This document shows positions 32,988 to 47,686 of a stretch of 56,382 nucleotides of DNA, in pieces. The stretch's first letter is position 1, and every line of letters begins with the position of its first letter. This stretch comes from Chitinophagales bacterium. Lineage in GTDB: Bacteria; Bacteroidota; Bacteroidia; Chitinophagales; Chitinophagaceae. A program made the position numbers and the translations under genes. Location of the stretch: NCBI GenBank assembly GCA_030832645.1, contig JAURIR010000006.1:1-56382 (forward strand). Reading direction: 5' to 3'. A model generated the notes under the pieces. It worked only from the letters and a program-made list of their open reading frames with translations. It made no database searches and had not been told where the DNA came from.

Positions 32988-33620
32988 ATGTCTACAAAAA
33001 CTATTTTCTTTTCAATTATTTTTCTTGTTCTGTTGCTCTCCTGTAACAGTCCTTTTACTCCTAAACCCAAAGGATATTTCAAGATAGACTTCCCGCAACA
33101 TTCTTATCAAACTTTTAATGAGCCAGGATTTCCCTACAGTTTTGAATATCCTTCCTATGCTACTATTTCAAAGCAAGTAGATTCTTCCGGACAGCAACCT
33201 TATTGGTTGAATATTGAATTCAACCAATTCAACGGAAAGATTTATCTCAGTTACAAATCCGTCAACGGATATTCAGTGTATAAAATCAAAACCCAACAGG
33301 GTTATAAGGATTCTCTCTCTAAAAATAGTTTTGATCAATTGCGCGACGAGGCTTTCAATATGACCTATAAGCATACCATCAAGGCATCTGGGATTGTAGA
33401 TTCATTTTTCAGGAACAAACCCGGATATGCTGGCATGTATTTTTATGTGGCGGGGAATGCCGCAACTTCCAAACAATTTTTTGTGACCGATTCGGTCAAA
33501 CATTTTTTGCGGGGCGCACTTTATTTTGATGCTACACCCAACGAAGATTCTATCCGAGTGGTAAGCGATTTTTTAGAGGCGGATGTAAAGCACCTGATTC
33601 AGACTCTTACATGGAAATAG
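32988..33620 (+). CDS. gldD: Gliding motility lipoprotein GldD
   Basis: A 210-residue lipoprotein with a signal peptide ending LVLLLSC (Cys19). The mature protein starts with the family pattern PKPKGYFKIDFP, then PGFPYSFEYPSYA and WLNIEFNQFNGKIYLSY. Required for gliding in Flavobacterium. It lies directly after gldE, the conserved pairing. Its last 14 bp overlap the convergent argH gene. Confidence 0.94.
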   Translation: MSTKTIFFSIIFLVLLLSCNSPFTPKPKGYFKIDFPQHSYQTFNEPGFPYSFEYPSYATISKQVDSSGQQPYWLNIEFNQFNGKIYLSYKSVNGYSVYKIKTQQGYKDSLSKNSFDQLRDEAFNMTYKHTIKASGIVDSFFRNKPGYAGMYFYVAGNAATSKQFFVTDSVKHFLRGALYFDATPNEDSIRVVSDFLEADVKHLIQTLTWK

Positions 33621-34911
33621 TGGATGCAATTTTCTTCATCTCTTTTTCAATTTCATCGTTGCATAAATTTCCGATACTGCCCTCGTGGGTATGATGGAGG
33701 GGCTGTGATGCATCAAAATAGAAGCTACCTTCATTGATCATATTTCCTACCTGTGCATAGGCATCTCTGAAGGGAACTCCCTTGTTTACGAGCTCATTTA
33801 CTTTTTCAACACTGAATAGATAAGTGTATTTTTTGTCTTGTAAAATATGTTTATTGACCGATAGCGCACTCAGCATTACCTGCATTAATTGAAGGCAGCT
33901 ACGCAATTCTTCGATAGCCGGGAAGATGATTTCTTTTGTCAATTGCATCTCTCTGTGGTATCCAGAGGGTAAATTATTGGTCAATAAAGTTAGTTCGTTG
34001 GGTATGGATTGAATTCGGTTGCATTTGCCACGAATCAATTCAAATACGTCAGGATTTTTTTTGTGCGGCATGATGCTGCTTCCTGTGGTGAGTTCTTCCG
34101 GAAAAGAGATGAATCCAAAATTCTGACTTACATACAAACAACTGTCCATCGACAATCTGCTCAAGCTGGCTGCAATAGATGACAATGCGAATGCAACAAG
34201 TTTTTCTGTCTTTCCCCTGCTCATCTGTGCATATACAGAGTTATAATTAAGTGTTTGAAATTTAAGGAGCTCTGTAGTTCTTTTTCTATTGAGTGGAAAG
34301 GAGGAGCCGTATCCAGCACCGCTGCCAAGTGGATTCTTATTTGCAACATGAAAGGCAGCAGACAGGTATTCCATGTCGTCTACTAGACTCTCTGCGTATG
34401 CACCTAGCCAGAGTCCAACAGACGAAGGCATAGCAATTTGAAGATGAGTATAGCCAGGAATCAAGTCGTCTTTGTGCTGGTTACTTTTTTGAATCAAGAG
34501 ATCAAATAATTTCAAGACATCTTCTTTGATTTCCAGAATGGCAGAGCGTAGGTATAATTTGATATCAACTGCAACCTGATCGTTTCTGCTTCTGCCGGTA
34601 TGAATCATCTTGCCAGCGTCTCCGATTTCATTGGTAAGCATCCATTCGATTTGTGAATGCACATCTTCCATTGTATTGTCAATATGAAATTCACCTTTCA
34701 AAATGGCTTCTTGTATTTTCTTTAATCCACGGATGGCGTTGTCTGCATCCTTGTTACTCATCAATCCTTGTTCTGCTAACATGGTAACATGTGCGATGGA
34801 TCCCTCCACATCGAATCTTGCTAACAGTATATCAAAATTCCTATCGTTGCCAACCGTGAAATCTTCGATGATTGTAGAAGTGGACGTTGTATCTTTTTTC
34901 CAGAGTTTCAT
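33607..34911 (-). CDS. argH: Argininosuccinate lyase
   Basis: The final step, argininosuccinate to arginine plus fumarate. The 434-residue fumarase-superfamily enzyme has HTGRSRNDQVAVD, the TH of GYTHLQIA and the signature GSSIMPHKKNPD with the catalytic Ser. It is the last gene of the leftward operon, 9 bp after argE. It overlaps gldD by 14 bp tail to tail. Confidence 0.96.
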   Translation of the reverse strand: MKLWKKDTTSTSTIIEDFTVGNDRNFDILLARFDVEGSIAHVTMLAEQGLMSNKDADNAIRGLKKIQEAILKGEFHIDNTMEDVHSQIEWMLTNEIGDAGKMIHTGRSRNDQVAVDIKLYLRSAILEIKEDVLKLFDLLIQKSNQHKDDLIPGYTHLQIAMPSSVGLWLGAYAESLVDDMEYLSAAFHVANKNPLGSGAGYGSSFPLNRKRTTELLKFQTLNYNSVYAQMSRGKTEKLVAFALSSIAASLSRLSMDSCLYVSQNFGFISFPEELTTGSSIMPHKKNPDVFELIRGKCNRIQSIPNELTLLTNNLPSGYHREMQLTKEIIFPAIEELRSCLQLMQVMLSALSVNKHILQDKKYTYLFSVEKVNELVNKGVPFRDAYAQVGNMINEGSFYFDASQPLHHTHEGSIGNLCNDEIEKEMKKIASTISM

Positions 34912-34920
34912 AATAAGATA

Positions 34921-36030
34921 TTAAACAGCTCTATAGATTGATGCAGTTTCCTCCAACAGATGAACAAGGGTTTCAATACCCTGTTCAATTTCTGTTGTAT
35001 AAATATACTCATCTGCGGTGTGACTTCTTGCAGAATCACCCGGACCGATCTTCAACGCAGGGAAATTCATCAATGCTTTATCGCTTGTAGTAGGTGATCC
35101 GTAATGAGGTAATCCTAGTTTCTTTCCTGCTTTTACAATGGGGTGGTCAAGTGGAATGAGGGTTGATTTCAAACGAAAACTTCTAGGGGTTACTTCGCTT
35201 TTCAGTTGTTGTTTTAAGAGGTGAAGAATCTCTTCGAAACTATACAATTCATTTACTCGAATATCAACGACAAATTTGCAGCTGGAGGGTATAACATTGT
35301 GTGCCTTGTTCTCTGTTTCAATCACTGTTACCTTGGCGGTTGTCTTTCCTGTGAGTTCAGAAATCTTATCAAATTCCAGCTGGTTGATTGTCTGAATATC
35401 CTGCAATGCAATGGCAATGGCATTGACACCCTCTTCTCTTGCGGCATGCCCCGCAATGCCTTTGGCAAGTGCATCTACAACCAAGAGTCCTCTTTCTGCA
35501 ACAGCCATCTGCATTCTGGTAGGTTCTCCAACCAATGCACCCACGATGCTGCTTCCTTTTAGCTGCGATTGGAAATTGCTGTCGTTCAAGAGCAATTCCA
35601 CTCCATTCTTACCCGATATTTCCTCCTCAGCCGTTGCGGCGAGTATCAAATTAAAGGGCAATGATTCATTCGAATAGAAATGAATGAAGGCGGCAATCAG
35701 CGAAACCAATGGTCCACCTGCATCGTTACTGCCCAATCCAATGATCTTTCCGTTTTCTTCGATGGGAGTAAACGGATCGTTCGTAAATCCTTTTACTGGT
35801 TTTACAGTATCGTGATGAGAGTTTAAGAGGATGCTTGGTTTGGATGAATCGAAGTAATTGTTGAATGCATACACATTGTTCATTAATCTATTGGTAGAAA
35901 TAGATTTTCCCTGCAGAAATATTTCAATAAGATCCGCTACTTCCTTCTCTTCTTTACTGAACGAAGGAGTGGCGATCATTTCTTTCAGCAGCCTTATTGC
36001 ATCTTGTTGAATAGTGTGAAGTGTAGACAT
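34921..36030 (-). CDS. argE: N-acylornithine/N-acylcitrulline deacylase (M20 peptidase family)
   Basis: A metal-dependent amidohydrolase of 369 residues that removes the N-acyl group in arginine synthesis. Metal motifs are visible: LNSHHDTVKP, GSNDAGGP, TAEEEISGKNG and GEPTRMQMAVAERG. Because the pathway here uses an N-acylornithine carbamoyltransferase, the expected substrate is N-acetyl- or N-succinylcitrulline. I chose ATG 36030 (MSTLHTI), 13 bp after the argB stop; the ORF extends to 36072 inside argB. Confidence 0.87.
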   Translation of the reverse strand: MSTLHTIQQDAIRLLKEMIATPSFSKEEKEVADLIEIFLQGKSISTNRLMNNVYAFNNYFDSSKPSILLNSHHDTVKPVKGFTNDPFTPIEENGKIIGLGSNDAGGPLVSLIAAFIHFYSNESLPFNLILAATAEEEISGKNGVELLLNDSNFQSQLKGSSIVGALVGEPTRMQMAVAERGLLVVDALAKGIAGHAAREEGVNAIAIALQDIQTINQLEFDKISELTGKTTAKVTVIETENKAHNVIPSSCKFVVDIRVNELYSFEEILHLLKQQLKSEVTPRSFRLKSTLIPLDHPIVKAGKKLGLPHYGSPTTSDKALMNFPALKIGPGDSARSHTADEYIYTTEIEQGIETLVHLLEETASIYRAV

Positions 36031-36043
36031 CCTATTGTATTTA

Positions 36044-36823
36044 TCAACTGATGGTTGTTCCGCTTTTTCCATTGATCAATTCGCTCAATTCCATGGCATC
36101 TCCAATGATTACCTTTGATACGCCCGATGAAATAGCTGCAAATGCATTATCCAGTTTTGGGATCATTCCTGCAAAAATGGAATGCTGCTCCTTCAACTGC
36201 TGGTAAAGAGCTTGATCAATAGTTGGAATGACTGAATGCTCGTCGTTTACATCTTTAAGCACACCTTTTTTCTCAAAAGAATATACCAGGGTAGTGGCAG
36301 CGTGCTTTGACATGGCCTTCGCAATTTCCTGTGCAATCGTATCTGCATTGGTGTTCAACAGTTGTCCTGATTCATCTTGTGTAATGGGCGCGATAATTAT
36401 ATTGAGATTGTTCTGCAAAAGAGAAAGCAGTAAATCTGTTTGTACTTGATCCACATCTCCCACAAAGCCAAAATCGATGTTAGGATGTTTTCTTTTGTGT
36501 GCAATGATTATTGAAGCATCTGCTCCGCATATACCTATAGAGGGGGAAGCCAATGCGTTCAATTGTGCTACAAGTTGTTTATTGATCCAACCTGCGTAGA
36601 CCATTGTAACAACTTTTAGTGTTTCCTGATCGGTGATTCTTCTTCCATCAACCATTTGTTGTGGAATGGAAAGATCTGCAGCCAGTTTGGTGGCTATTTT
36701 TCCTCCTCCGTGAACAAGGATTTTTTTTCCTTGAATGCGTGCAAAGGCTGCAAGGAAAGTTTTCAGATTCGATGCATCGTCTATGATACTGCCACCGACT
36801 TTTATGATATAAAGTGGTTCCAT
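36044..36823 (-). CDS. argB: N-acetyl(succinyl)glutamate kinase
   Basis: A 259-residue amino-acid-kinase-fold enzyme phosphorylating N-acylglutamate. YIIKVGGSIID and VHGGGK are the ATP/substrate loops, GRRITDQETL binds the acylglutamate, and NTNADTIAQEIAKAM and MIPKLDNAFAAI follow. It lies 5 bp after the carbamoyltransferase gene. Bacteroidota enzymes of this type may use N-succinylglutamate. Confidence 0.93.
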   Translation of the reverse strand: MEPLYIIKVGGSIIDDASNLKTFLAAFARIQGKKILVHGGGKIATKLAADLSIPQQMVDGRRITDQETLKVVTMVYAGWINKQLVAQLNALASPSIGICGADASIIIAHKRKHPNIDFGFVGDVDQVQTDLLLSLLQNNLNIIIAPITQDESGQLLNTNADTIAQEIAKAMSKHAATTLVYSFEKKGVLKDVNDEHSVIPTIDQALYQQLKEQHSIFAGMIPKLDNAFAAISSGVSKVIIGDAMELSELINGKSGTTIS

Positions 36824-36828
36824 GATTT

Positions 36829-37794
36829 TTATTTATGCTGTTTGAGCATGGACGCGATTACTGCTTGTGCTGCCCATACTCTGTTGGATGCTTGTTGGGT
36901 GATAATACTATTTGGTCCATCCAGTATTTCATCAGGAAGTTCAACATTTCGTCGAACAGGAAGGCAATGCATCACTTTTGCCCGATTGGTTTTTTCTAAT
37001 TTTTTATTACTGAGCATCCATTCTCCCTCATAGGCAGGCATTGTGCCGTATTGCTGAACTGCACTCCAATTCTTTACGTAGATGAAATCAGCGTCTTGCA
37101 AAGCTGCATCTTGGTCGTATACAATAGTAGCACCCTTTGTAAACTGTTCGTCGAGTTCATAGCCTTTCGGATGGGTGATAACAAAATCAGCCTCTCCCCA
37201 TGCATTAGTCCATTGCGCAAAGCTATTGGCTACACATTGTGGCAAAGGTTTTACGTGAGGTGCCCAGCTCAAAACGATCCGGGGTTTTTTATTCAAGCTG
37301 ATTGTTTTGATGGTTTCATGAATCGTAATCAAATCGGCGAAACTTTGTAGGGGATGAAGTGTTGCGCTTTCCAAGCTGATCACTGGAATGCCGGCATATT
37401 TTATAAATTGATGAATGATGTGCTCGCTGTAATCTGCAGTACGGTCTTTTAGTCCTGGAAAGGTCCTCACTGCAAGTATGTCGAAATAATTTCCCAAGAT
37501 GGGTGCAGCATCCTTCACATGCTCTACGGTAGTTCCGTTCATGATTGCACCGTCTTCAAATTCCAATGCCCATCCTTCTGCTCCAACATTGAACACAACT
37601 GCTTCCATTCCCAATTGTTGTGCAGCAACTTGTGTACTCAATCGTGTACGCATACTTGGATTCATGAACAGGCATCCAATTTTCTTGTGTTTGCCCAATT
37701 GTTCGTCTTTCCATGGCGTTGCTTTATACTCCAAAGCCATCTCGATGAGCCCGGGAATAGAATGTACGTCGTTTGCAGATAGAAATTGTTTCAT
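36829..37794 (-). CDS. argF': N-succinyl(acetyl)ornithine carbamoyltransferase
   Basis: A 321-residue transcarbamylase of the unusual Bacteroidota/Xanthomonas branch. It carbamoylates an N-acylated ornithine rather than free ornithine. SMRTRLSTQ is the carbamoyl-phosphate loop (the STRTR equivalent) and HCLPVRRN is the C-terminal substrate loop. Residue 90, in NGTTVEHV, is Val. In the Xanthomonas acetylornithine enzyme this position is Glu92 and in the Bacteroides fragilis succinylornithine enzyme Pro90; as I recall, replacing the Glu by small or hydrophobic residues switches preference to succinylornithine. I therefore favour succinylornithine. Confidence 0.93.
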   Translation of the reverse strand: MKQFLSANDVHSIPGLIEMALEYKATPWKDEQLGKHKKIGCLFMNPSMRTRLSTQVAAQQLGMEAVVFNVGAEGWALEFEDGAIMNGTTVEHVKDAAPILGNYFDILAVRTFPGLKDRTADYSEHIIHQFIKYAGIPVISLESATLHPLQSFADLITIHETIKTISLNKKPRIVLSWAPHVKPLPQCVANSFAQWTNAWGEADFVITHPKGYELDEQFTKGATIVYDQDAALQDADFIYVKNWSAVQQYGTMPAYEGEWMLSNKKLEKTNRAKVMHCLPVRRNVELPDEILDGPNSIITQQASNRVWAAQAVIASMLKQHK

Positions 37795-37801
37795 GATGCA
37801 A

Positions 37802-38947
37802 TTAGTCTTGGTAATTATTGATAGCCAGTGAAAGTTTCTCTATGAAATAGGCTGCATCCTCCATTGTAAGTGCCAGCGAAGGCAGTAATCTGATCACATT
37901 GGGTTTTGCTTCCCCGGTAAATATTTTATGTTTGAAAAGAAGATCTTTTTTAAGATTTTTCAAATGATCTGGGACGTCGAATCCGATCATCAGTCCTTTT
38001 CCTCTTACACCCGATATGGATGGAATCGATTTCAGGGAAGAGAGTAGAAACTCGCCTACTTTTTCTGCATTGCTCATCAAATCTTCTTTTTTCATCACTT
38101 CCAAAACTGCCAGTGCAGCTGCGCAAGCCAAGTGGTTACCACCGAAAGTGGTTCCCAACATGCCGTGTTTTGATTTCAAGGCAGGAGAGATGATGATGCC
38201 GCCGATGGGAAATCCATTGCCCATACCTTTTGCCATTGAGTAGATATCGGCCTCTACACCCGCATCATCGTGACTGAAAAATTTTCCTGATCTGCCATAG
38301 CCGCATTGAACACTGTCTGCAATGTATATTGCACCGTATTGGTTGCAGTTTTTTCTTATAGATAATAAGAAGCTATTATCTGCAACGTTGATGCCGCCAA
38401 CCCCTTGAATACCTTCGATGATTACTGCAGCAATTTCATGCCCTTGGGTGTTGAATGTTTCTTCCAGTGCTGCTACATCGTTGAATGGTAAGAAAATAAT
38501 ATTTTCTGTTTCGTTAACCGGAGCAAGGATAGCAGGGTTGTCTGTTGCAGCAACCGCAAGAGAAGTTCTGCCGTGAAATGATTTTTTGAAGGCGATGATT
38601 TTTTTTCTTCCCGTATGAAAAGATGCCAGTTTCAATGCATTCTCATTGGCTTCTGCTCCTGAATTACAAAGGAATAATTGGTATTCTTTTTTTCCGGATA
38701 CTTCACCCAATGTATGCGCCAATTCTTCTTGAATTGGAATTTTTATCGAGTTGGAATAAAATGCAATTTTTTTTATTTGTTCCTCTATACGATGAACCCA
38801 ATGCGGATGTGTATGTCCGATGCTGATCACCGCATGCCCACCATACAGGTCGAGGTATTCATTTTGACGATCATCCCAAACCCTCGATCCTTTGGCATGC
38901 GTGATGTTGATGTCGTTGATAGGGTATACGTCAAATAGTTTCATCAC
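37802..38947 (-). CDS. argD: Acetyl/succinylornithine aminotransferase
   Basis: A 381-residue class III PLP aminotransferase forming N-acylornithine. DLYGGHAVISIGHTHP is near the N-terminus, FLCNSGAEANENALKLA is the PLP phosphate region, SFHGRTSLA follows, and the PLP lysine is probably in the YSMAKGMGNGFPIG segment. It starts MMKLFDVYP; the second Met is an equally possible start. It lies 7 bp upstream of the carbamoyltransferase gene. Confidence 0.94.
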   Translation of the reverse strand: MMKLFDVYPINDINITHAKGSRVWDDRQNEYLDLYGGHAVISIGHTHPHWVHRIEEQIKKIAFYSNSIKIPIQEELAHTLGEVSGKKEYQLFLCNSGAEANENALKLASFHTGRKKIIAFKKSFHGRTSLAVAATDNPAILAPVNETENIIFLPFNDVAALEETFNTQGHEIAAVIIEGIQGVGGINVADNSFLLSIRKNCNQYGAIYIADSVQCGYGRSGKFFSHDDAGVEADIYSMAKGMGNGFPIGGIIISPALKSKHGMLGTTFGGNHLACAAALAVLEVMKKEDLMSNAEKVGEFLLSSLKSIPSISGVRGKGLMIGFDVPDHLKNLKKDLLFKHKIFTGEAKPNVIRLLPSLALTMEDAAYFIEKLSLAINNYQD

Positions 38948-38955
38948 TTTAATAT

Positions 38956-39936
38956 TTAAAAAGCACTTGCTTTAAGTTGGAGTCCTTCGGTTTGCTCAAG
39001 ACCAAACATGATATTCATATTTTGAACAGCTTGTCCGCTTGCGCCTTTCAACAAATTATCCAGTGCAGTATGAACGACCAATTTATCATTGGCCTGCTCT
39101 AAAAAAATCACAGCTTTGTTAGTATTGATAACTTGTTTCAAGGCAATTTGTTTTTCCGAAACCACAGTAAATGGGTGCTCACTATAATATTCTTTGTACA
39201 ATGCAATTGCTTGTTCAATGGAATGTGTGGAACTGAGTGTGGAAGAAGCAAAAATTCCTCTGGTGAAATCTCCTCTCCATGGAACAAAGTGAACAGAGGC
39301 TTTTGCTGAACTCAGTTGATGCAGCGACTGATGAATTTCGCCAAGATGTTGATGTGTCAGCGTTTTGTAGGCTTGAATATTGTTTGCCCTCCATGAAAAA
39401 TGGCTGGTGGCACTAAGGGATTGACCTGCTCCAGTTGATCCAGTAATAGCGGTTGTATACACATCGTTCACCAACCCTTTTGAGGCCAGCGGAAGCAATC
39501 CCAATTGAATGGCTGTTGCAAAGCAACCAGGATTGGCAATATTCTTTGCAGATGCGATTTGTTGAAAATTCAATTCAGGCAGACCGTACACAAATTTTCT
39601 ATTTTGAAAGTTTGCATTGGACTCCAGGCGAAAATCGTTCGCCAGATCTATAATATTGATCTGTTCTGAAATTGTATTTTCTTGTAAAAACTTGGATGAT
39701 TCGCCATGACCAAGACAGAGAAACAATACATCTATGTTTTGGTCAATGCTATCTGTAAATTGTAATGTGGTAGATCCGAGAAGGTCTTCGTGCACTTGAT
39801 GGACTGGATTTCCTGCATTACTCTTGCTATGAACAAAAGAGATTTCAACACGGGGATGATGTAACAATAGACGGATCAGTTCACCTCCTGTGTATCCTGC
39901 TCCACCAATGATTCCTACTTTGATGGTTGCTTTCAT
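38956..39936 (-). CDS. argC: N-acyl-gamma-glutamyl-phosphate reductase
   Basis: A 326-residue NADPH-dependent semialdehyde-forming enzyme. GIIGGAGYTGGELIRLL is the Rossmann motif with the ArgC signature, ANPGCFATAIQLGLLPL carries the catalytic Cys, and HFVPWRGDFTRGI is the substrate region. Its ATG overlaps the argG stop (ATGA), implying translational coupling. Confidence 0.96.
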   Translation of the reverse strand: MKATIKVGIIGGAGYTGGELIRLLLHHPRVEISFVHSKSNAGNPVHQVHEDLLGSTTLQFTDSIDQNIDVLFLCLGHGESSKFLQENTISEQINIIDLANDFRLESNANFQNRKFVYGLPELNFQQIASAKNIANPGCFATAIQLGLLPLASKGLVNDVYTTAITGSTGAGQSLSATSHFSWRANNIQAYKTLTHQHLGEIHQSLHQLSSAKASVHFVPWRGDFTRGIFASSTLSSTHSIEQAIALYKEYYSEHPFTVVSEKQIALKQVINTNKAVIFLEQANDKLVVHTALDNLLKGASGQAVQNMNIMFGLEQTEGLQLKASAF

Positions 39937-41141
39937 AGTGAATCTTTTTTATTTTGCTTTTGAACAGCATTCCAGATACTGGTTTGGTTTCCGAAGATCT
40001 TGCTGAAGCCTCTTACATCATCACCAGTAAAGCCTGTATTCATTTCACCGTACTTTCCAAATTTACTGTTCATCAAATCAAACGGTGATTCGATGCCGAT
40101 GATTTGGAACCTATAGGGTTGAAGCTGAACATATACATTTCCTGTTACGTTTTCTTGTGAGTGTTCAAGATAGGCTTCAATGTCTCTCATCACAGGGTCG
40201 AGTATTTGTCCTTCGTGCAACCAATTCCCGTAAAACTGAGAGAGGGTATCTTTCCATTGCAGCTGCCATTTTGTGAGCACGTGTTTCTCCAGTGCGTGAT
40301 GTGATTTTAAGATTACCATAGGTGCTGCTGCTTCAAAGCCAACTCTTCCTTTGATACCGATAATTGTATCGCCTACATGCACATCTCTTCCAATTCCAAA
40401 TGGACCCGCCAATGTTTGTAAGTATTGAATCGCCTTGGATGGATGATCAAAAACTTTCTCATTGATTCCTTTCAACTCACCTTTCTCAAAACGAAGGACT
40501 ACTTCTTCTGGATCCTGTTTGGTTACCTGTGTAGGCCAAGCCGATTCAGGGAGCATTCCTTTAGATGAAAGTGTTTCCTTTCCGCCCACGCTGGTTCCCC
40601 AGAGTCCTTTGTTAATAGAGTACATCGCCTTTTCTGCATTCATTTGAACTCCTTTTGATTGGAGGTATTGAATTTCTTCTTCTCTACTGAGTTGCAAATC
40701 GCGAATGGGAGTGATGATCTCAACACCTGGGATCATGATATGGAAGACCATGTCGAAACGAACTTGATCGTTTCCTGCTCCAGTGCTTCCATGGGCAACT
40801 GCATCTGCACCAAGTTGTTGAACATGTTCTGCAATATGGATCGCCTGGCTCAATCTCTCAGCACTTACGCTCAATGGATAGGTATTGTTTTTTAAAACGT
40901 TTCCGTAAATCAGGTATTTAATGATACGATCATAATAGGATGAAACAGCATTCACAGAAGTATGAGAAGTGACACCTAATTTCTTTGCATGCTCCTCGAT
41001 TTTCTTTAACTCCTCTTCGCTGAAACCACCTGTATTTACGATGATGCTGTGTACTTCGTATCCTTTTTCTTCAGAAAGATATTTTACACAAAACGTTGTA
41101 TCCAATCCACCACTGAATCCCAATACAATTTTCTTTGGCAT
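39933..41141 (-). CDS. argG: Argininosuccinate synthase
   Basis: A 402-residue ATP-dependent ligase of citrulline and aspartate. LGFSGGLDTTFCVKYL is the P-loop of the N-type PPi synthetases; AHGSTGAGNDQVRFD is the citrulline/aspartate binding motif. It is the second gene of the operon, 10 bp after the GNAT gene, and overlaps argC by 4 bp. Placing argG ahead of argC is a common Bacteroidota order. Confidence 0.96.
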   Translation of the reverse strand: MPKKIVLGFSGGLDTTFCVKYLSEEKGYEVHSIIVNTGGFSEEELKKIEEHAKKLGVTSHTSVNAVSSYYDRIIKYLIYGNVLKNNTYPLSVSAERLSQAIHIAEHVQQLGADAVAHGSTGAGNDQVRFDMVFHIMIPGVEIITPIRDLQLSREEEIQYLQSKGVQMNAEKAMYSINKGLWGTSVGGKETLSSKGMLPESAWPTQVTKQDPEEVVLRFEKGELKGINEKVFDHPSKAIQYLQTLAGPFGIGRDVHVGDTIIGIKGRVGFEAAAPMVILKSHHALEKHVLTKWQLQWKDTLSQFYGNWLHEGQILDPVMRDIEAYLEHSQENVTGNVYVQLQPYRFQIIGIESPFDLMNSKFGKYGEMNTGFTGDDVRGFSKIFGNQTSIWNAVQKQNKKDSL

Positions 41142-41151
41142 GTTCTGAGTT

Positions 41152-41856
41152 TTAGATGTTGATTAAAGACAGCAACACTCCCACAATGGATTTTCCGTTG
41201 TTATCTTTTTTGGTAAATGACTTGAGAAAATTCAATCGTTTAAAGTTGAAAAGTCTTTCAAATCCTTTTTTATTTTCTTCGAAATATTGTGTTGTTTCTT
41301 CTGGAGTATAATGATCTTTCGGATCGTATAACATGGCTGTGCACATACAGTTTTTTCTTTCCTTGCTCATCAGTATATCATAGTTCACACAGCTTTTGCA
41401 TCCTGCCCAGAAGTCTTCGTCTTGAGTAAGTTCTGAATAAGTAACTGGCTCGTAACCCAGTTCAGAATTGATTTTCATTACTGCCAGCCCTGTAGTTAAA
41501 CCAAAAATCTTTGCATCAGGATAGGTGGTTCTGCTCAGTTCAAAAATTTTCTTTTTGATCAGCTTAGCCAATCCACCTTTTCTCAAACTTGGTTTTACGA
41601 TGAGTCCGGAGTTGGCAACATACGCTCCGTGGCTCCAGGTTTCAATGTAGCAAAATCCTGCCCATTCGCCTTTTTCTGAAGTTGCCACTACGGCTTTGCC
41701 CTCGCTCATTTTCTTGCGTACATAGTCGGGGCTCCTTTTGGCAATACCCGTACCACGGGCTTTTGCGGATTCCTCCATTTCTGTACAGATTTCGTCGGCA
41801 AACTTGAAATCTGCTTCACTGGCTACGTATATATTATAGTGTTTTTGTTCTTCCAT
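41152..41856 (-). CDS. GNAT acetyltransferase at the head of the arg operon, candidate N-acylglutamate synthase
   Basis: A 234-residue protein with a GNAT fold: the strand KAVVATSEKGEWAGFCYIE, the acyl-CoA loop LRKGGLAKLIKK, and LTTGLAVMKINSELGYEPV. A Cys cluster follows (GCKSC and NCMC), which may bind a metal or sense something. The operon contains no classical ArgA or ArgJ, yet needs an N-acylglutamate; first position in the operon makes this the natural candidate. Whether acetyl- or succinyl-CoA is used cannot be read. A 320-bp leader lies upstream. Confidence 0.8.
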   Translation of the reverse strand: MEEQKHYNIYVASEADFKFADEICTEMEESAKARGTGIAKRSPDYVRKKMSEGKAVVATSEKGEWAGFCYIETWSHGAYVANSGLIVKPSLRKGGLAKLIKKKIFELSRTTYPDAKIFGLTTGLAVMKINSELGYEPVTYSELTQDEDFWAGCKSCVNYDILMSKERKNCMCTAMLYDPKDHYTPEETTQYFEENKKGFERLFNFKRLNFLKSFTKKDNNGKSIVGVLLSLINI

Positions 41857-41952
41857 TTTTACATGATGAATTGAAATGAATGGTATCCGGATCCCTTTGA
41901 AATCAAGAGGAACCAGGTTATCGAATCAATCGCTGTGAGGGTGTAGTAACTA

Positions 41953-42081
41953 TCAACGTCGTACCAAAAATGGAATCGGTCGGCGTAAAAAAACTGTAGC
42001 GCTTGGTACAGTAAAAACCCAACGCGTGGAAGCGGCAGGAGCCGTTTCTGCTATTGTTGAAGGGGTTAGGTTTTTTTTCAT
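41953..42081 (-). CDS. Possible leader peptide upstream of the arg operon
   Basis: A 42-codon ORF, MKKNLTPSTIAETAPAASTR at the start, ending LRRPIPFLVRR. Five Arg codons, four of them in the last 12 residues (CGC CGA and CGA CGT just before TGA). It lies in the 320-bp leader of the arginine operon, about 95 bp before the GNAT gene. A possible -7 element, TATGTTTA, lies at 42124-42131 on the minus strand. It may be a regulatory leader peptide or chance. Confidence 0.25.
   Translation of the reverse strand: MKKNLTPSTIAETAPAASTRWVFTVPSATVFLRRPIPFLVRR
41961..42012 (-). promoter_or_regulatory. Mutually exclusive stems in the arg operon leader
   Basis: Minus strand: ACTGTA and TACAGT with an 8-nt loop (42012-41993) followed by seven Ts resembles a weak intrinsic terminator. 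GTACCAA, within that hairpin (42009-42003), can instead pair with TTGGTAC at 41967-41961. The two stems cannot coexist, which is the layout of an attenuator. The stem is short and AU-rich, so this is tentative. Confidence 0.25.
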
Positions 42082-42176
42082 TTCTCTGTGTCTAAGAAAT
42101 TAATAAAAATTGTGAACTGCAAATAAACATATTTTTTTCTAAAAATGGCCTAAATATGTTTGAATCCTTTCGAGGA

Positions 42177-42941
42177 TCAGCGCGGGTTGGGAACTATGGA
42201 TCCTGCATGAACGGCCTGACATATATCGTTGATGAGCCCTGGATCTTTCTCAATAGCATTTCCGACTACAATCATATCAGCACCAGCTTTACAATTGGTA
42301 TAGGCTTTTTCGGGATGAAGTATTCCTCCTCCAACAATCAAAGGAATTTGGGTGTGTGAGGAAACTGCTTGAATCATTGATTCTTTGATGGGGTGTTTTG
42401 CACCACTTCCCGCATCCATGTACAATAATTTAAGTCCGAGCATTTCCCCTGCCAAAGCAGTGCAAAGTGCTATCTCGTTTTTATCACTCGGAATGGGGTT
42501 GGCATTGCTAATGTAGGAAACTGTTGTGGGTGCACCACCGTCTATCAACATATAACCGGTTGGGATCACTTCCAGTCCACTCTTTTTAACGGCTGGAGCA
42601 GAGATGACATGTTGGCCAATAAGCAACTCAGGATTTCTGCCGGAAATCAACGACAAATAGAGAAGCGCATCAGCATAGGGCGTGATTTGCGAGGGGCTAC
42701 CCGGAAAGAGCAATACAGGTATATCGCAGGAAGCTTTGATGTGTTGAACAAGCTCGTCTAAGTGATCACTCACTACCAAACTACCACCAACAAAAATGAA
42801 ATCAACTTTCGATGAAGTACACAATGCAATCAATTCATCTGCTTTCTTCAAAGAAGTTTTATCAGGGTCTACAAGAACAGTAAATGCTTTCTTGTTTTCA
42901 CTTTTTAATTGGACTATTTTACCATAGGTTGACGTGAGCAT
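42177..42941 (-). CDS. Geranylgeranylglyceryl-phosphate synthase family protein
   Basis: A 254-residue (beta/alpha)8 prenyltransferase of the GGGPS/PcrB family. VLVDPDKTSLKKADELI and FVGGSLVVSDHLD bind glycerol-1-phosphate and Mg; LLFPGSPSQIT, YMLIDGGAPTTV, LLYMDAGSGAKHPI, PLIVGGGI and AGADMIVVGN complete the barrel. Best known from archaeal ether-lipid synthesis; Bacteroidota carry a bacterial branch of unknown physiological role. It is upstream of the arg operon on the same strand but separated by a long leader. Confidence 0.92.
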   Translation of the reverse strand: MLTSTYGKIVQLKSENKKAFTVLVDPDKTSLKKADELIALCTSSKVDFIFVGGSLVVSDHLDELVQHIKASCDIPVLLFPGSPSQITPYADALLYLSLISGRNPELLIGQHVISAPAVKKSGLEVIPTGYMLIDGGAPTTVSYISNANPIPSDKNEIALCTALAGEMLGLKLLYMDAGSGAKHPIKESMIQAVSSHTQIPLIVGGGILHPEKAYTNCKAGADMIVVGNAIEKDPGLINDICQAVHAGSIVPNPR

Positions 42942-43151
42942 GTGTGGGGTCTTCTAGTGCAAATGTGCGAAAAACTTTGCTAGAAATCATGAAAAATCGG
43001 GCCTTTCATCAAATTAAGTAATTCAGGTCATTTCACGCGATGTTTCTGGGTCATTTAACATCCTATTTATTTTTCTCTATTTGACCAAAATTTTTTTTAC
43101 CAAAAAAGTGCAAAAAATAGCAAATTCAATCCCCTTGCGGATTGTTGTAGT

Positions 43152-43170
43152 TATCAACAGGGTGTTGATA
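43152..43170. promoter_or_regulatory. Palindromic operator-like site upstream of nrdJ
   Basis: TATCAACA-GGG-TGTTGATA, a perfect 8-bp inverted repeat with a 3-bp spacer, ending 8 bp before the -33 box of the nrdJ promoter. It does not resemble the NrdR box. Probably a regulator site. Confidence 0.45.
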
Positions 43171-43178
43171 TTTAAGGG

Positions 43179-43209
43179 TTTGAAAAGACAGTGAGCGGGG
43201 ATATTTTCG
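43179..43209 (+). promoter_or_regulatory. Promoter of nrdJ
   Basis: TTTG (43179-43182), 19 bp, TATTTTCG (43202-43209): a near-ideal Bacteroidota promoter. It is flanked by the inverted repeat GACAGT (43187-43192) / ACTGTC (43213-43218). The leader is about 50 nt to ATG 43264. Elsewhere in the 322-bp gap I see A/T-rich DNA and no B12-riboswitch signature. Confidence 0.6.
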
Positions 43210-43263
43210 TTGACTGTCCAAAAACAAAAAAACAGTTCATAAAAACATTACATACGACGCAAT

Positions 43264-46200
43264 ATGCCCAACAAAACCAGCACTAAGAATCCAGGACTAA
43301 AATTCCAAAGACAATTCACCAATGACAATGTGAATGTTGTTGAAATGTTCGAGTACGATTACAGAACATCCGTCATCAGAAATCCAACTGGTGAGGTAGT
43401 ATTTGAAATGACCAATGTGGAAGTTCCAAAGCAATGGAGTCAGATTGCCACTGATATCCTCGCTCAAAAATATTTTAGGAAAGCAGGTGTTCCACAACCC
43501 GATGGTTCATTGGGAAGAGAAACTTCTGCAAAGCAGGTGGCACACCGTATGGCCAATTGCTGGAGGGTGTGGGGAGAGCGTTATGGATATTTTGCTTCTT
43601 CACAGGATGCCCAAATTTTCTACGAAGAGTTGGTGTATTGTATTTTGAATCAGGCATGCGTTCCTAATTCACCTCAGTGGTTCAATACCGGTTTGCACGA
43701 AAGCTACGGTATCAAAGGAAAACCACAAGGGCATTATTATGTTGATCAAAACGATGGACAGTTAAAGAAGTCAACTTCTGCATACGAGCGTCCACAACCA
43801 CATGCATGTTTCATATTGAGTGTAGACGATGATTTGGTGAACGAAGGTGGCATCATGGATTTGTGGGTACGTGAAGCAAGAATTTTCAAATACGGTTCTG
43901 GTGTTGGAACCAACTTCTCCAATTTACGTGGAGAAGGTGAAAAGCTCAGCGGTGGGGGTACATCCTCTGGATTGATGAGCTTCTTAAAAATTGGCGACCG
44001 TGCAGCCGGAGCAATCAAGAGCGGTGGAACCACTCGTCGTGCTGCCAAAATGGTTTGCTTGGATTTGGATCATCCTGAAATTGAAACCTTCATCGATTGG
44101 AAAGTAGAAGAAGAGAAGAAAGTGGCAGCATTGATTGCTGCTGGATATTCCAGCGATTACGAAGGCGAAGCATATCGCACAGTTAGTGGACAGAACTCCA
44201 ACAACTCTGTAAGAATTCCAAATGAATTTTTTGAAAAATTAGCAAAAGGTGAAGATTGGGAATTGACTGGAAGAATGGATGGTAGAGTGATGAAGAAGAT
44301 TTCAGCCAAAGCATTGTGGGATAAAATTGCTTATGCTGCATGGCGTTGTGCTGATCCAGGAACACAATACGATACCACCATTAATGAGTGGCATACTTGT
44401 CCGAAAGGAGGAAGAATCAGAGCCTCCAATCCTTGCAGTGAGTACATGTTCCTAGATAACACAGCATGTAACCTTGCTTCTGCCAATCTTAGGAAGTTCT
44501 TCAACGAAAGCGATAACAGCTTTGATGTAAAAGGTTTCGAATACACCGTTCGTCTTTGGACAACTGTATTGGAAATTTCAGTTTTGATGGCGCAGTTTCC
44601 AAGTAAGGAAGTTGCACAACTTAGTTACGACTATCGTACACTAGGTTTGGGCTATGCGAACCTCGGAAGTATGTTGATGGTAAGTGGCATTCCTTACGAC
44701 AGCGAAGAGGCAAGAGGAATTGCAGGAGCGATCACTGCTATCATGACCGGTATTTCTTATAAAACATCTGCAGAGATTGCAGGTATCTTGGGAGCCTTCC
44801 CTCGTTACGATGAGAACAAGGAAGACATGATGCGTGTAATGAGAAACCACCGTGCTGCTGCATACGATGCAGAAGATGCATATGTGGGATTGAGCATCAC
44901 TCCTCAAGGAATCAACGCAAAGGATTGTCCTGATTACTTGCTGAAAGCAGCTTGCAAAGCTTGGGACGATGCGGTGGAGTACGGAGAGAAATATGGATAC
45001 CGCAATGCACAGACTACTGTAATTGCACCAACAGGAACCATTGGGTTGGTAATGGATTGCGATACAACCGGTGTAGAGCCTGATTTTGCATTGGTAAAAT
45101 TCAAAAAACTTTCTGGTGGTGGATACTTTAAAATCATCAACCAGTCAGTACCTCAGGCATTGGCGAATTTAAAATATAGCGAAGCTGAGCAAGATGCTAT
45201 TATTAAATACGCAGTAGGTGCTGCAAGTTTTGCAGGTGCTCCATTCATCAACCATCAAACATTGAGCGAGAAAGGTTTCATTGCCGATGAAATCAAGAAA
45301 TTAGATGAAGCAGTAATTTCTGCTTTTGAAGTTGGTTTCGTTTTCAATGTATATACACTTGGTGAAGAGTGTTTGCAGCGTTTAGGTTTCAAGCCCGAAC
45401 AATATTTCAATTTCGATTGGAGCTTATTGAAGGCTCTTGGATTCACAGGTGCTGAAATTGATGCAGCGAATGATTATGTATGTGGAACAATGACCATCGA
45501 AGGCGCACCACATTTGAAAGAGGAGCACTATCCGGTATTTGATTGTGCCAACAAGTGCGGTAAGAAAGGAGAGCGTTACATCCATCCGCATGGACACATC
45601 CGTATGATGGCGGCTACACAGCCATTCATAAGTGGAGCGATTTCTAAAACAATCAACCTTCCGAACGAAGCCAATATCAATGAAATCGCAGATTGTTATC
45701 ATTTGAGTTGGGAACTTGGATTGAAAGCATGTGCATTGTACCGTGATGGATCCAAGCTCAGTCAGCCGCTCAGTAATAAGAGCGATAGCAAAGCCGACGA
45801 AGAAACAGCAAACGAATCAACCGACAGCCAATTCATTGATGTAGGAAAACTTACTGTAGATGAATTGCTGGATGAATTACAAAAGAGAATGCAAGCTTCT
45901 CCTGATACCAAGTTGAAGCGTCAGTTATCCAGAATCGTTGAACGTAAATCACTTCCTGCAAAGAGAAGAGGCTTTACACAGAAAGCGAGAATCAACGGCC
46001 AAACTATTTTCTTGCGTACGGGTGAATTCGATGATAATACATTGGGTGAGATCTTCATCGATCTTGCAAAAGAAGGATCTACCTTGCGCAGCTTGATGAA
46101 CTGTTTTGCCATTGCAGTGTCTGTTGGTTTGCAATACGGTGTACCATTGGAAGAGTTTGTAGAGAAGTTTGTGTTCACCAAGTTTGAACCAGCCGGTATG

Positions 46201-46581
46201 GTAGATCATCCAAATATCAAATCAACAACTTCCATCGTAGACTTTGTATTCCGTTGCTTGGCATACGAATACCTCGATAGAACTGATTTGGTACATGTAT
46301 TGGACAGACCCGAAGTAATGAATACTGGCAACGATGAATGGGATGATCAACCCGAAAGCAAGCCAGAGTTGTCGGATGTGAGAGTGATTGCTTCTTCTGC
46401 AGTTCCTGCACCCAAACCACAAAAAACATCTGTTGCAGTAAAAGCGGATAACAGCACACAAGAATACATGAAGAGTATGCAAAGTGATGCACCCGCTTGT
46501 AACACTTGCGGACACATCACAGTGAGAAGCGGCACTTGTTACAAATGCTTGAATTGTGGCAATAGCATGGGTTGCAGTTAA
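43264..46581 (+). CDS. nrdJ: Vitamin B12-dependent (class II) ribonucleotide reductase
   Basis: A 1105-residue enzyme that makes deoxynucleotides using adenosylcobalamin. The ten-stranded barrel carries ACVPNSPQWFNTGLH, GSGVGTNFSNLRG, SNPCSEYMFLDNTACNLASA (active-site region) and IAPTGTIGLVMDCDTTGVEP. After the core come a charged linker (about 850-880) and a TSCPD-type domain (LRSLMNCFAIAVSVGLQYG). The C-terminal tail has two Cys pairs and ends CLNCGNSMGCS, likely for re-reduction or metal binding. Activity does not require oxygen, fitting microaerobic tolerance. No nrdA/B is in the window. Confidence 0.96.
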   Translation: MPNKTSTKNPGLKFQRQFTNDNVNVVEMFEYDYRTSVIRNPTGEVVFEMTNVEVPKQWSQIATDILAQKYFRKAGVPQPDGSLGRETSAKQVAHRMANCWRVWGERYGYFASSQDAQIFYEELVYCILNQACVPNSPQWFNTGLHESYGIKGKPQGHYYVDQNDGQLKKSTSAYERPQPHACFILSVDDDLVNEGGIMDLWVREARIFKYGSGVGTNFSNLRGEGEKLSGGGTSSGLMSFLKIGDRAAGAIKSGGTTRRAAKMVCLDLDHPEIETFIDWKVEEEKKVAALIAAGYSSDYEGEAYRTVSGQNSNNSVRIPNEFFEKLAKGEDWELTGRMDGRVMKKISAKALWDKIAYAAWRCADPGTQYDTTINEWHTCPKGGRIRASNPCSEYMFLDNTACNLASANLRKFFNESDNSFDVKGFEYTVRLWTTVLEISVLMAQFPSKEVAQLSYDYRTLGLGYANLGSMLMVSGIPYDSEEARGIAGAITAIMTGISYKTSAEIAGILGAFPRYDENKEDMMRVMRNHRAAAYDAEDAYVGLSITPQGINAKDCPDYLLKAACKAWDDAVEYGEKYGYRNAQTTVIAPTGTIGLVMDCDTTGVEPDFALVKFKKLSGGGYFKIINQSVPQALANLKYSEAEQDAIIKYAVGAASFAGAPFINHQTLSEKGFIADEIKKLDEAVISAFEVGFVFNVYTLGEECLQRLGFKPEQYFNFDWSLLKALGFTGAEIDAANDYVCGTMTIEGAPHLKEEHYPVFDCANKCGKKGERYIHPHGHIRMMAATQPFISGAISKTINLPNEANINEIADCYHLSWELGLKACALYRDGSKLSQPLSNKSDSKADEETANESTDSQFIDVGKLTVDELLDELQKRMQASPDTKLKRQLSRIVERKSLPAKRRGFTQKARINGQTIFLRTGEFDDNTLGEIFIDLAKEGSTLRSLMNCFAIAVSVGLQYGVPLEEFVEKFVFTKFEPAGMVDHPNIKSTTSIVDFVFRCLAYEYLDRTDLVHVLDRPEVMNTGNDEWDDQPESKPELSDVRVIASSAVPAPKPQKTSVAVKADNSTQEYMKSMQSDAPACNTCGHITVRSGTCYKCLNCGNSMGCS

Positions 46582-46590
46582 TAGAAATCA

Positions 46591-47070
46591 GTGAAGCTAA
46601 AAATAAGTTATCAAAAAGGAAAGGTACTGCAGGCTCTGCGGTACCATTTCATTTCTATGAGGGAGATCAAAATCTTGATCATCCTAGTCAATGTTTTTGC
46701 ATTGTTTGCTGCAGTAATGTTTTCCATGGAAATGATTTCTCCATTGCCCTTTTTGATGAGTTCCGTACTTTGGATATCAATGATGGTCGCCTTTTGGATA
46801 TGGCTGCCTGCATTGATTTATAGAAAGAGTAAAACTTTTCAAGATCAGTTTGAAGTGTCTATCGAAGAACAGCACTTCTTTATTGAAACATCAAGTGGAA
46901 AGAAATCGTGGGCATGGAGAGAATTCAACCGCTATTACGAAACCCCTGGATTTTTTCATTTGTATTTTGATGCAAAAAGTTTTTTTCTTGTTCCCAAGGA
47001 TGCTTTCCATTCGCAAGAGGAATTGGAGAAAGCACGAGAAATTTTTCGGAATAATATTGGTAGAAACTAG
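46591..47070 (+). CDS. Small membrane protein with YcxB-like domain
   Basis: 159 residues, starting at GTG 46591 (KLKISYQKGKVLQALRYHF), 9 bp after the nrdJ stop. Two hydrophobic segments (about 27-45 and 52-72) are followed by a soluble domain of the YcxB type (FEVSIEEQHFFIETSSGKK, WREFNRYYETPGFFHLYF). The N-terminal segment before the first span is conserved in Bacteroidota relatives as I remember them, which supports the GTG start over the internal ATG. Function unknown. Its stop shares CTAG with the convergent GNAT gene. Confidence 0.75.
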   Translation: MKLKISYQKGKVLQALRYHFISMREIKILIILVNVFALFAAVMFSMEMISPLPFLMSSVLWISMMVAFWIWLPALIYRKSKTFQDQFEVSIEEQHFFIETSSGKKSWAWREFNRYYETPGFFHLYFDAKSFFLVPKDAFHSQEELEKAREIFRNNIGRN

Positions 47071-47498
47071 ATGAGGTTCTTCCTCATTTCCACATGGGGG
47101 AGGGTGACTTCAATAAATTCATCACCGTAGGTGGAGTAACCTATCTTTTCATAGAACGACTCGGCCGTTTTTCTAGCATGCATGGTTATGGTCTTGAATC
47201 CTGCATCTCTGGCAACATGTTCGGCAAATTGCATGATGGCGTGCCCAATACCGTTTCTTTGCATTTTTTGATGCACCGCCATCTGGCGAAGCTTACACAA
47301 AGTGGGTGAAATTTTTGTGAGAATACAGCAGGCAACGAGGTCGTCGTCTTCGAATGCACCGATCAATATATCATCTTTCTCATTTTTCAGGTCCTCCTCC
47401 GTAAAATGAAGGCCAAGTGGTTTGCGGAGGATGTCCATCCTCAATTGAACCATTTGTTCATACGCTGGAGATCCGTGATCGATGATCTTGATTGGCAT
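47067..47498 (-). CDS. GNAT family N-acetyltransferase
   Basis: A 143-residue acetyltransferase. QMAVHQKMQRNGIGHAIMQF is the acetyl-CoA loop (QxxGxG/A type), followed by TMHARKTAESFYEKIGYSTY, typical of the fold. Overall it resembles ElaA/PhnO-type proteins. I chose ATG 47498 (MPIKIIDHG); a longer in-frame ORF to 47540 starts with an unlikely polar segment. Substrate unknown. Confidence 0.82.
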   Translation of the reverse strand: MPIKIIDHGSPAYEQMVQLRMDILRKPLGLHFTEEDLKNEKDDILIGAFEDDDLVACCILTKISPTLCKLRQMAVHQKMQRNGIGHAIMQFAEHVARDAGFKTITMHARKTAESFYEKIGYSTYGDEFIEVTLPHVEMRKNLI

Positions 47499-47686
47499 GC
47501 TACAAATTAAATTATTTCTTCCTGTATTCGTAGAATTCAATTTCTTTTAAATCTTTTTTAGCAAATAAGTCGGATTATCCAGTGGTTGGTTTGTTTATAA
47601 TTGATTATCAACGAGTTGCATCTGTTTAATCTTCTAAATAATTTTTCACAAACCTTCAACAGATTATGTTTTTATTCCAAATAGTT

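Follow-up and report, generated by a model that had tools for sequence, protein, structure and literature searches.

The window, i.e. the whole stretch of 56,382 bp analysed here (contig JAURIR010000006.1 of a Chitinophagales bacterium), harbors a minus-strand run of eight genes with the 5′–3′ order argA2, argG, argC, argD, carbamoyltransferase gene, argB, argE-like gene and argH (Table 1). Neighboring genes of the run are 5–10 bp apart, with a gap of 10 bp between argA2 and argG, or overlap, as is the case for two pairs (4 and 29 bp). All seven partners of argA2 were identified with NCBIfam and Pfam models, with argD, the carbamoyltransferase and the argE-like product scoring under their NCBIfam cut-offs, so the operon does contain every step of arginine synthesis except a known N-acylglutamate synthase, as had been claimed in an earlier note made from the sequence of the window. 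The argD candidate of Bacteroides was rated by GapMind with moderate confidence only (PMC7311316; this and the other papers cited are represented here by excerpts). No known RNA family was detected at the gathering threshold within positions 33000–43300.

Table 1 Genes of the arginine operon and other genes of the window mentioned in the text
Gene or product	Position	Strand	Model matches and remarks
Gliding lipoprotein GldD	32988..33620	+	Operon neighbor
argH, argininosuccinate lyase	33607..34911	-	TIGR00838 above cut-off
argE-like M20 deacylase, likely N-succinylcitrulline desuccinylase	34921..36072	-	TIGR01910 128.7 bits, below cut-off; PF01546
argB, N-acylglutamate kinase	36044..36823	-	TIGR00761 above cut-off
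N-succinylornithine-type carbamoyltransferase (SOTCase)	36829..37794	-	NF003384 283.3 bits, just below cut-off 288; specificity positions V/P/E
argD-type class III aminotransferase	37802..38947	-	TIGR00707 340.9 bits, below cut-off 410; PF00202
argC, N-acyl-gamma-glutamyl-phosphate reductase	38956..39936	-	TIGR01850 above cut-off
argG, argininosuccinate synthase	39933..41141	-	TIGR00032 270.4 bits, cut-off 268.2
argA2, GNAT-fold N-acylglutamate (probably N-succinylglutamate) synthase, predicted	41152..41856	-	234 aa; invariant C153, C156, C170, C172
PcrB family protein	42177..42941	-	Operon neighbor
Class II B12-dependent ribonucleotide reductase	43264..46581	+	Operon neighbor
Second, ordinary GNAT acetyltransferase	47067..47540	-	PF13673, PF00583; unmatched by the ArgA2 search of the genome

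The argA2 ORF is a real one, as its 234 codons read open and the opposite (plus) strand is full of stops. Its product has no match in NCBIfam or Pfam at an E-value of 0.001 and is thus recognized neither as classical ArgA, defined by TIGR01890 and by amino-acid-kinase plus GNAT domains, nor as ArgJ, defined by TIGR00120 over its cut-off. At E ≤ 0.01 a weak match to PF00583 is present in 33 of the 35 aligned family members including the window protein, the score of which (16.9) is under the gathering score of 20.7. The gene was described in the earlier note as a GNAT gene with an acyl-CoA loop at the head of the operon, and it is indeed the first gene of the minus-strand run, the loop RxxGxA being located at R92–A97; R92 is conserved in all 81 distinct homologues, and G95 and A97 in 80 of them each.

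The AlphaFold2 model of the argA2 protein, built from a 35-row alignment, has a mean pLDDT of 89.9 and a pTM of 0.78. When it was searched against the PDB with Foldseek, the top match was N-acetylglutamate synthase 2r8v from N. gonorrhoeae (E 2.1e-9). VIA-align also ranked 2r8v first (Z 17.5, rmsd 2.8, 152 aligned residues) and 5yge, which according to its title is ArgA complexed with AceCoA and glutamate, second (Z 17.1, rmsd 2.5, 144 aligned residues), followed by 9cr5, Ard1 and others with Z of about 16, rows differing by less than 1 Z being considered ties. The predicted fold, common to the model and N-acetylglutamate synthases, is no proof of the reaction. No solved structure was found within the ArgA2 family, the best sequence match to solved proteins being a generic GNAT (E 2e-4).

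The distribution of the gene was analysed in a survey set of 296 genomes drawn from the phylum, with the window genome included, 124 of which possess ArgA2. A search of the set with the acetylornithine-carbamoyltransferase model, in which matches of at least 204 bits were listed, left the range from 255 down to 240 bits empty; the 145 genomes with higher scores are defined as acylornithine-type by model score, their specificity residues having been read for part of them only, and five matches listed just under the gap do not carry the motif. ArgA2 is present in 124 of the 145 genomes with such a carbamoyltransferase (> 255 bits) and in none of the 151 others (Fisher 9e-62, related genomes treated as independent). 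With the window carbamoyltransferase as a query (E ≤ 1e-60), 111 genomes were found, all of them among the 124 with ArgA2.

A total of 155 ArgA2 loci were examined, some of which duplicate one genome, and two with less than 300 bp of room were left out. In 129 of the remaining 153 loci argG adjoins ArgA2, and the same is true for 77 of 78 loci with room from named genomes; the seven partner genes follow in the order of the window in 43 of the 59 named loci whose downstream flank is 9 kb or longer. The named-genome scan covers the best 80 of at least 588 loci, among which 80 there is no Bacteroides or Caldithrix sequence, and tblastn matches shorter than 60 residues as well as loci L001–L031 were left out of one locus set. 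Presence of homologues in 124 genomes together with the adjacency of argG places the gene and its operon link far beyond chance. Loci with no argG nearby number 23 among the 153; they comprise six second copies and 17 cases of ArgA2 standing apart (some read with short flanks), so the co-occurrence with the carbamoyltransferase goes beyond adjacency. In thirteen genomes whose acylornithine-type carbamoyltransferase is diverged, ArgA2 stands away from detectable arg genes (L206–L217 and L078). Three genomes encode an in-frame ArgA2–ArgG fusion (L074:9075-9629, L075:8395-8952 and L076:8960-9496, 588 aa from the chosen start).

ArgJ was detected in 120 of the 296 genomes at E ≤ 1e-40 (119 over the cut-off) and occurs together with ArgA2 in a single genome, G285 (Fisher 5e-39, related genomes treated as independent); no ArgJ was found in 26 ArgA2 genomes which were searched separately and do not include G285. 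The earlier note had named a separate ArgA or ArgJ elsewhere in the genome as evidence against its assignment. Searches for these two families in the window genome (2.2 Mb, 93% complete, 6% contamination) revealed no match for ArgJ, and the ArgA model TIGR01890 matched only the ArgB kinase, below the cut-off.

Nine PF00583 GNAT matches are located elsewhere in the window genome, one of them being the second GNAT of the window, and a short unconventional synthase among these nine is conceivable. The window protein might then acylate a target other than glutamate, such as a protein or another amine, and thereby regulate the operon, with another GNAT making N-acylglutamate, and its invariant cysteine cluster, described below, could be regulatory. 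This is very improbable, considering that ArgA2 and ArgJ overlap in one genome only, that ArgA2–ArgG fusions exist, and that mutants in the Bacteroides family member BT3761 need arginine (PMC9026213; also PMC7311316). Position at the operon head, fold matches, co-occurrence and the negative searches for ArgA and ArgJ give good support to N-acylglutamate synthase as the predicted activity, which was the assignment proposed at the outset.

The assignment is not new, as the family has already been described. As late as 2015 the succinylating enzyme was listed as unidentified (PMC4490483), and BT3761 was later assigned as a probable N-succinylglutamate synthase on the basis of mutant fitness and genome context, with pathway fitness data coming from Bacteroides, Echinicola and Pedobacter and with succinylated intermediates apparently used by most Bacteroidetes (PMC7311316). 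The name ArgA2 was given to BT3761 in PMC9026213, where it was also mentioned that the gene sits within Bacteroidetes arginine operons and that its fitness defect is rescued by arginine. The Caldithrix member Cabys_1732 was called an N-acetylglutamate synthase with reference to unpublished results (PMC5317091). No succinyl-CoA assay of an ArgA2 family member was found in the open-licence literature. From its position in the operon and from the distribution of the family we infer that the window gene is an orthologue of BT3761 (Q8A1A5); it is an ordinary ArgA2, probably succinyl-CoA dependent, and would carry out the opening step of a route that most Bacteroidetes appear to use (PMC7311316).

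As to the acyl group, the best solved relative of the window carbamoyltransferase is 1js1 from B. fragilis (E 7.7e-90), the best entry for an acetylornithine enzyme having an E-value of 3.4e-54. Enzymes specific to acetylornithine carry Glu92, Asn185 and Lys302 (AOTCase numbering), and those specific to succinylornithine have A/S/P/V/Q, P and V/I/E at these positions (PMC4581275). The window enzyme reads V, P and E, i.e. the succinylornithine set, which agrees with the premise of the earlier note that it uses succinylornithine. Out of 104 distinct carbamoyltransferase sequences from ArgA2-bearing loci or genomes, with the window included, 95 carry the complete succinyl set, and Glu does not occur at the first position of any of the 104. 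Of the nine misfits, four deviate at the first position (G, T, T and I), three have A at the second, one has K at the third and the last is truncated. An acetyl-type contrast group was expected in the 13 ArgA2 genomes not found with the window carbamoyltransferase as a query, and was not obtained: all 13 possess a diverged enzyme whose residues were read and which has no Glu at the first position, so no donor-specific residues of ArgA2 could be derived.

Alternatively, the window protein may be an N-acetylglutamate synthase which uses acetyl-CoA as a donor, with the pathway running at least partly on acetylated intermediates. The nearest folds of the argA2 model belong to acetyl enzymes, and the Caldithrix report (PMC5317091) is a counterpoint to the succinyl donor, since it suggests that acetyl-CoA may serve some or all members of the family. 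Despite that, this alternative is considered unlikely, as succinyl-type residues are found in the carbamoyltransferase both of the window and of most of the ArgA2-associated sequences, and ArgB of B. fragilis is a succinylglutamate kinase (PMC7311316). The window gene is therefore very likely to encode an N-succinylglutamate synthase, a prediction that follows from the fold, the motif, the operon, the co-occurrence with the carbamoyltransferase and the searches in which neither ArgA nor ArgJ was found.

The cysteine cluster pointed out in the earlier note consists of GCKSC (residues 152–156) and NCMC (residues 169–172), which together form the motif CxxC-x13-CxC (C153, C156, C170, C172), situated in the model between helix 147–153 and strand 173–177. 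The four cysteines are identical in all 81 distinct homologues, in all 35 rows of the working alignment and in all 88 representatives (an 80% identity set drawn from 186 sequences), including six divergent second copies, and the remaining cysteines vary, C24 being found in 53 and C69 in 73 of the 81 homologues. These second copies (L068–L073), five of which have no arg genes nearby and one of which is located beside an M20 deacylase, have residues unlike those of the main group at positions 39, 45, 69, 81, 119, 129 and 135.

Judging by the alignments, the Cys4 motif is a family hallmark of ArgA2, and its invariance is explained by a structural site no less well than by a redox or metal switch. 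Redox sites often hold CxxC and CxC pairs. Their presence in ArgA2 is thus compatible with a redox or iron-sulfur switch instead of a structural zinc site, and redox control had been raised in the earlier note; such a switch is possible, if doubtful, given that the cysteines are kept in every representative and even in the divergent second copies. A structural zinc knuckle would be the simplest reading of the motif and is somewhat favored here, whichever reaction the protein catalyses. No earlier report linking zinc or cysteines to a GNAT N-acetylglutamate synthase was found in the literature searched, and the motif is not mentioned in the excerpts of PMC7311316, PMC9026213 and PMC5317091, so within this literature it appears to be unreported. 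Its invariance makes the metal question easy to test.

On the basis of these data we infer glutamate as the acceptor, succinyl-CoA as the donor, the roles of individual residues and the zinc as follows. ArgA2, a single-domain GNAT of Bacteroidota, would succinylate the amino group of L-glutamate with succinyl-CoA as the donor; the N-succinylglutamate formed would be processed by ArgB, ArgC, ArgD, the succinylornithine carbamoyltransferase and the desuccinylase to citrulline, and the latter would be converted to arginine by ArgG and ArgH. The CoA moiety is expected to lie on the RxxGxA loop, and the likeliest carboxylate binders are the invariant basic residues R34, R41 and K49 in the stretch 31–49. 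Residues 139–172 are predicted to be an insert between strands 136–138 and 173–177, which were assigned in this analysis as β6 and β7 by the GNAT convention, and the Cys4 motif carried by this insert could coordinate a structural zinc and give support to the acceptor side.

No ArgA2 was detected in 21 of the 145 genomes with an acylornithine-type carbamoyltransferase. They were expected to be of the acetyl type, which is not what their carbamoyltransferase residues indicate: the first position is occupied by A (18 genomes), P, Q or T, the second by P and the third by V in all 21, so 20 of them fit the succinyl set, with G281 (T) being the misfit. It was this lack of acetyl-type residues that led to protein X, a P-loop protein of about 350 residues encoded between argG and argC (loci L281–L302, e.g. 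L281:1498-2574; operons L273, L274, L276, L277 and L279). Profile A3, which left out row L278 of alignment A2 as a wrong-frame ORF, finds protein X at E < 1e-150 in 22 of the 296 genomes, namely in all 21 without ArgA2 and in G089, which has ArgA2 too and is one of the thirteen genomes with a diverged carbamoyltransferase mentioned above. The order argG–X–argC on one strand is found in all 22, and either ArgA2 or protein X is present in each of the 145 genomes. G281 possesses ArgJ in addition to protein X and the acylornithine-type carbamoyltransferase. Remote relatives (E 1e-19 to 1e-26) were found in six further genomes, five of which have ArgA2, and two genomes with protein X carry such a relative as an additional copy; the alignment of protein X consists of the 22 strong matches, with eight remote ones left out.

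At E ≤ 0.01, 18 of the 22 sequences match PF07755 (DUF1611), with the best E-value of 1.1e-4, and the gathering score is not reached (five scores of 16.8–21.6 vs 25). The AlphaFold model of protein X (pLDDT 88.6, pTM 0.87) is similar to 2g0t (Z 17.5), the DUF1611 structure 2obn (Z 15.6) and 7xrj, titled N-acetyltransferase DgcN-25328 (Z 14.8), and the alignments begin at residues 58, 84 and 61 of the model, respectively, ahead of the P-loop domain. Other P-loop enzymes (CTP synthase, dethiobiotin synthetase and ApbC) reach comparable scores with alignments confined to the P-loop domain, and FtsY/SRP GTPases are ranked first by plain Foldseek. The overall fold of the model agrees with that of the solved DUF1611/DgcN proteins. 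DgcN itself is presumably a DUF1611 member acetylating D-glutamate, in agreement with the PDB title of 7xrj. It belongs to the D-glutamate pathway (PMC12363236, PMC10845958), and dgcN genes have been noted in Rhodothermia and Bacteroidia (PMC12363236), some of which may be X-like genes.

Protein X is a strong candidate for a second N-acylglutamate synthase, unrelated to the first. No link of a DUF1611/DgcN-type protein to arginine was found in the literature searched, within which the presence of protein X in place of ArgA2 also appears to be unreported. It is quite probable that the succinyl-type first step is filled in this phylum by two unrelated enzymes, one being ArgA2, a Cys4 and possibly zinc-bearing GNAT, and the other, where ArgA2 is missing, the DgcN-like P-loop protein whose gene lies between argG and argC. 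If so, the latter would be an N-succinyl- (or N-acetyl-) L-glutamate synthase of a novel type and gives a reason to re-examine the DgcN-like genes of the phylum which may be read as belonging to D-glutamate catabolism. New to a specialist would be the invariant Cys4 motif and the displacement of ArgA2 by protein X.

Compared with known systems, the window gene is closest to the ArgA2/BT3761 family. BT3761 is a GNAT gene of a Bacteroidetes arginine operon with argG next to it by locus number (BT3760), and Cabys_1732 of Caldithrix has the argA–G–C order, both as described in the excerpts of PMC9026213, PMC7311316 and PMC5317091 and both as in the window. The family co-occurs with N-succinylornithine carbamoyltransferase where ArgA and ArgJ are missing, which is the case for the window as well, and no difference between the window gene and the family is known from a comparison that did not include the BT3761 sequence itself. 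Classical N-acetylglutamate synthases, represented by 2r8v from N. gonorrhoeae and the short ArgA 5yge, have the GNAT fold, predicted for ArgA2, and the proposed acceptor in common with it; they share 12–16% identity with ArgA2, which differs in the Cys4 insert and the probable succinyl donor, as well as in lacking the further domain carried by 2r8v. The DgcN/DUF1611 proteins (7xrj, 2obn and 2g0t) are fold relatives of protein X, which is not encoded in the window and takes the place of ArgA2 in 21 genomes; their P-loop fold is unrelated to the GNAT fold of ArgA2.
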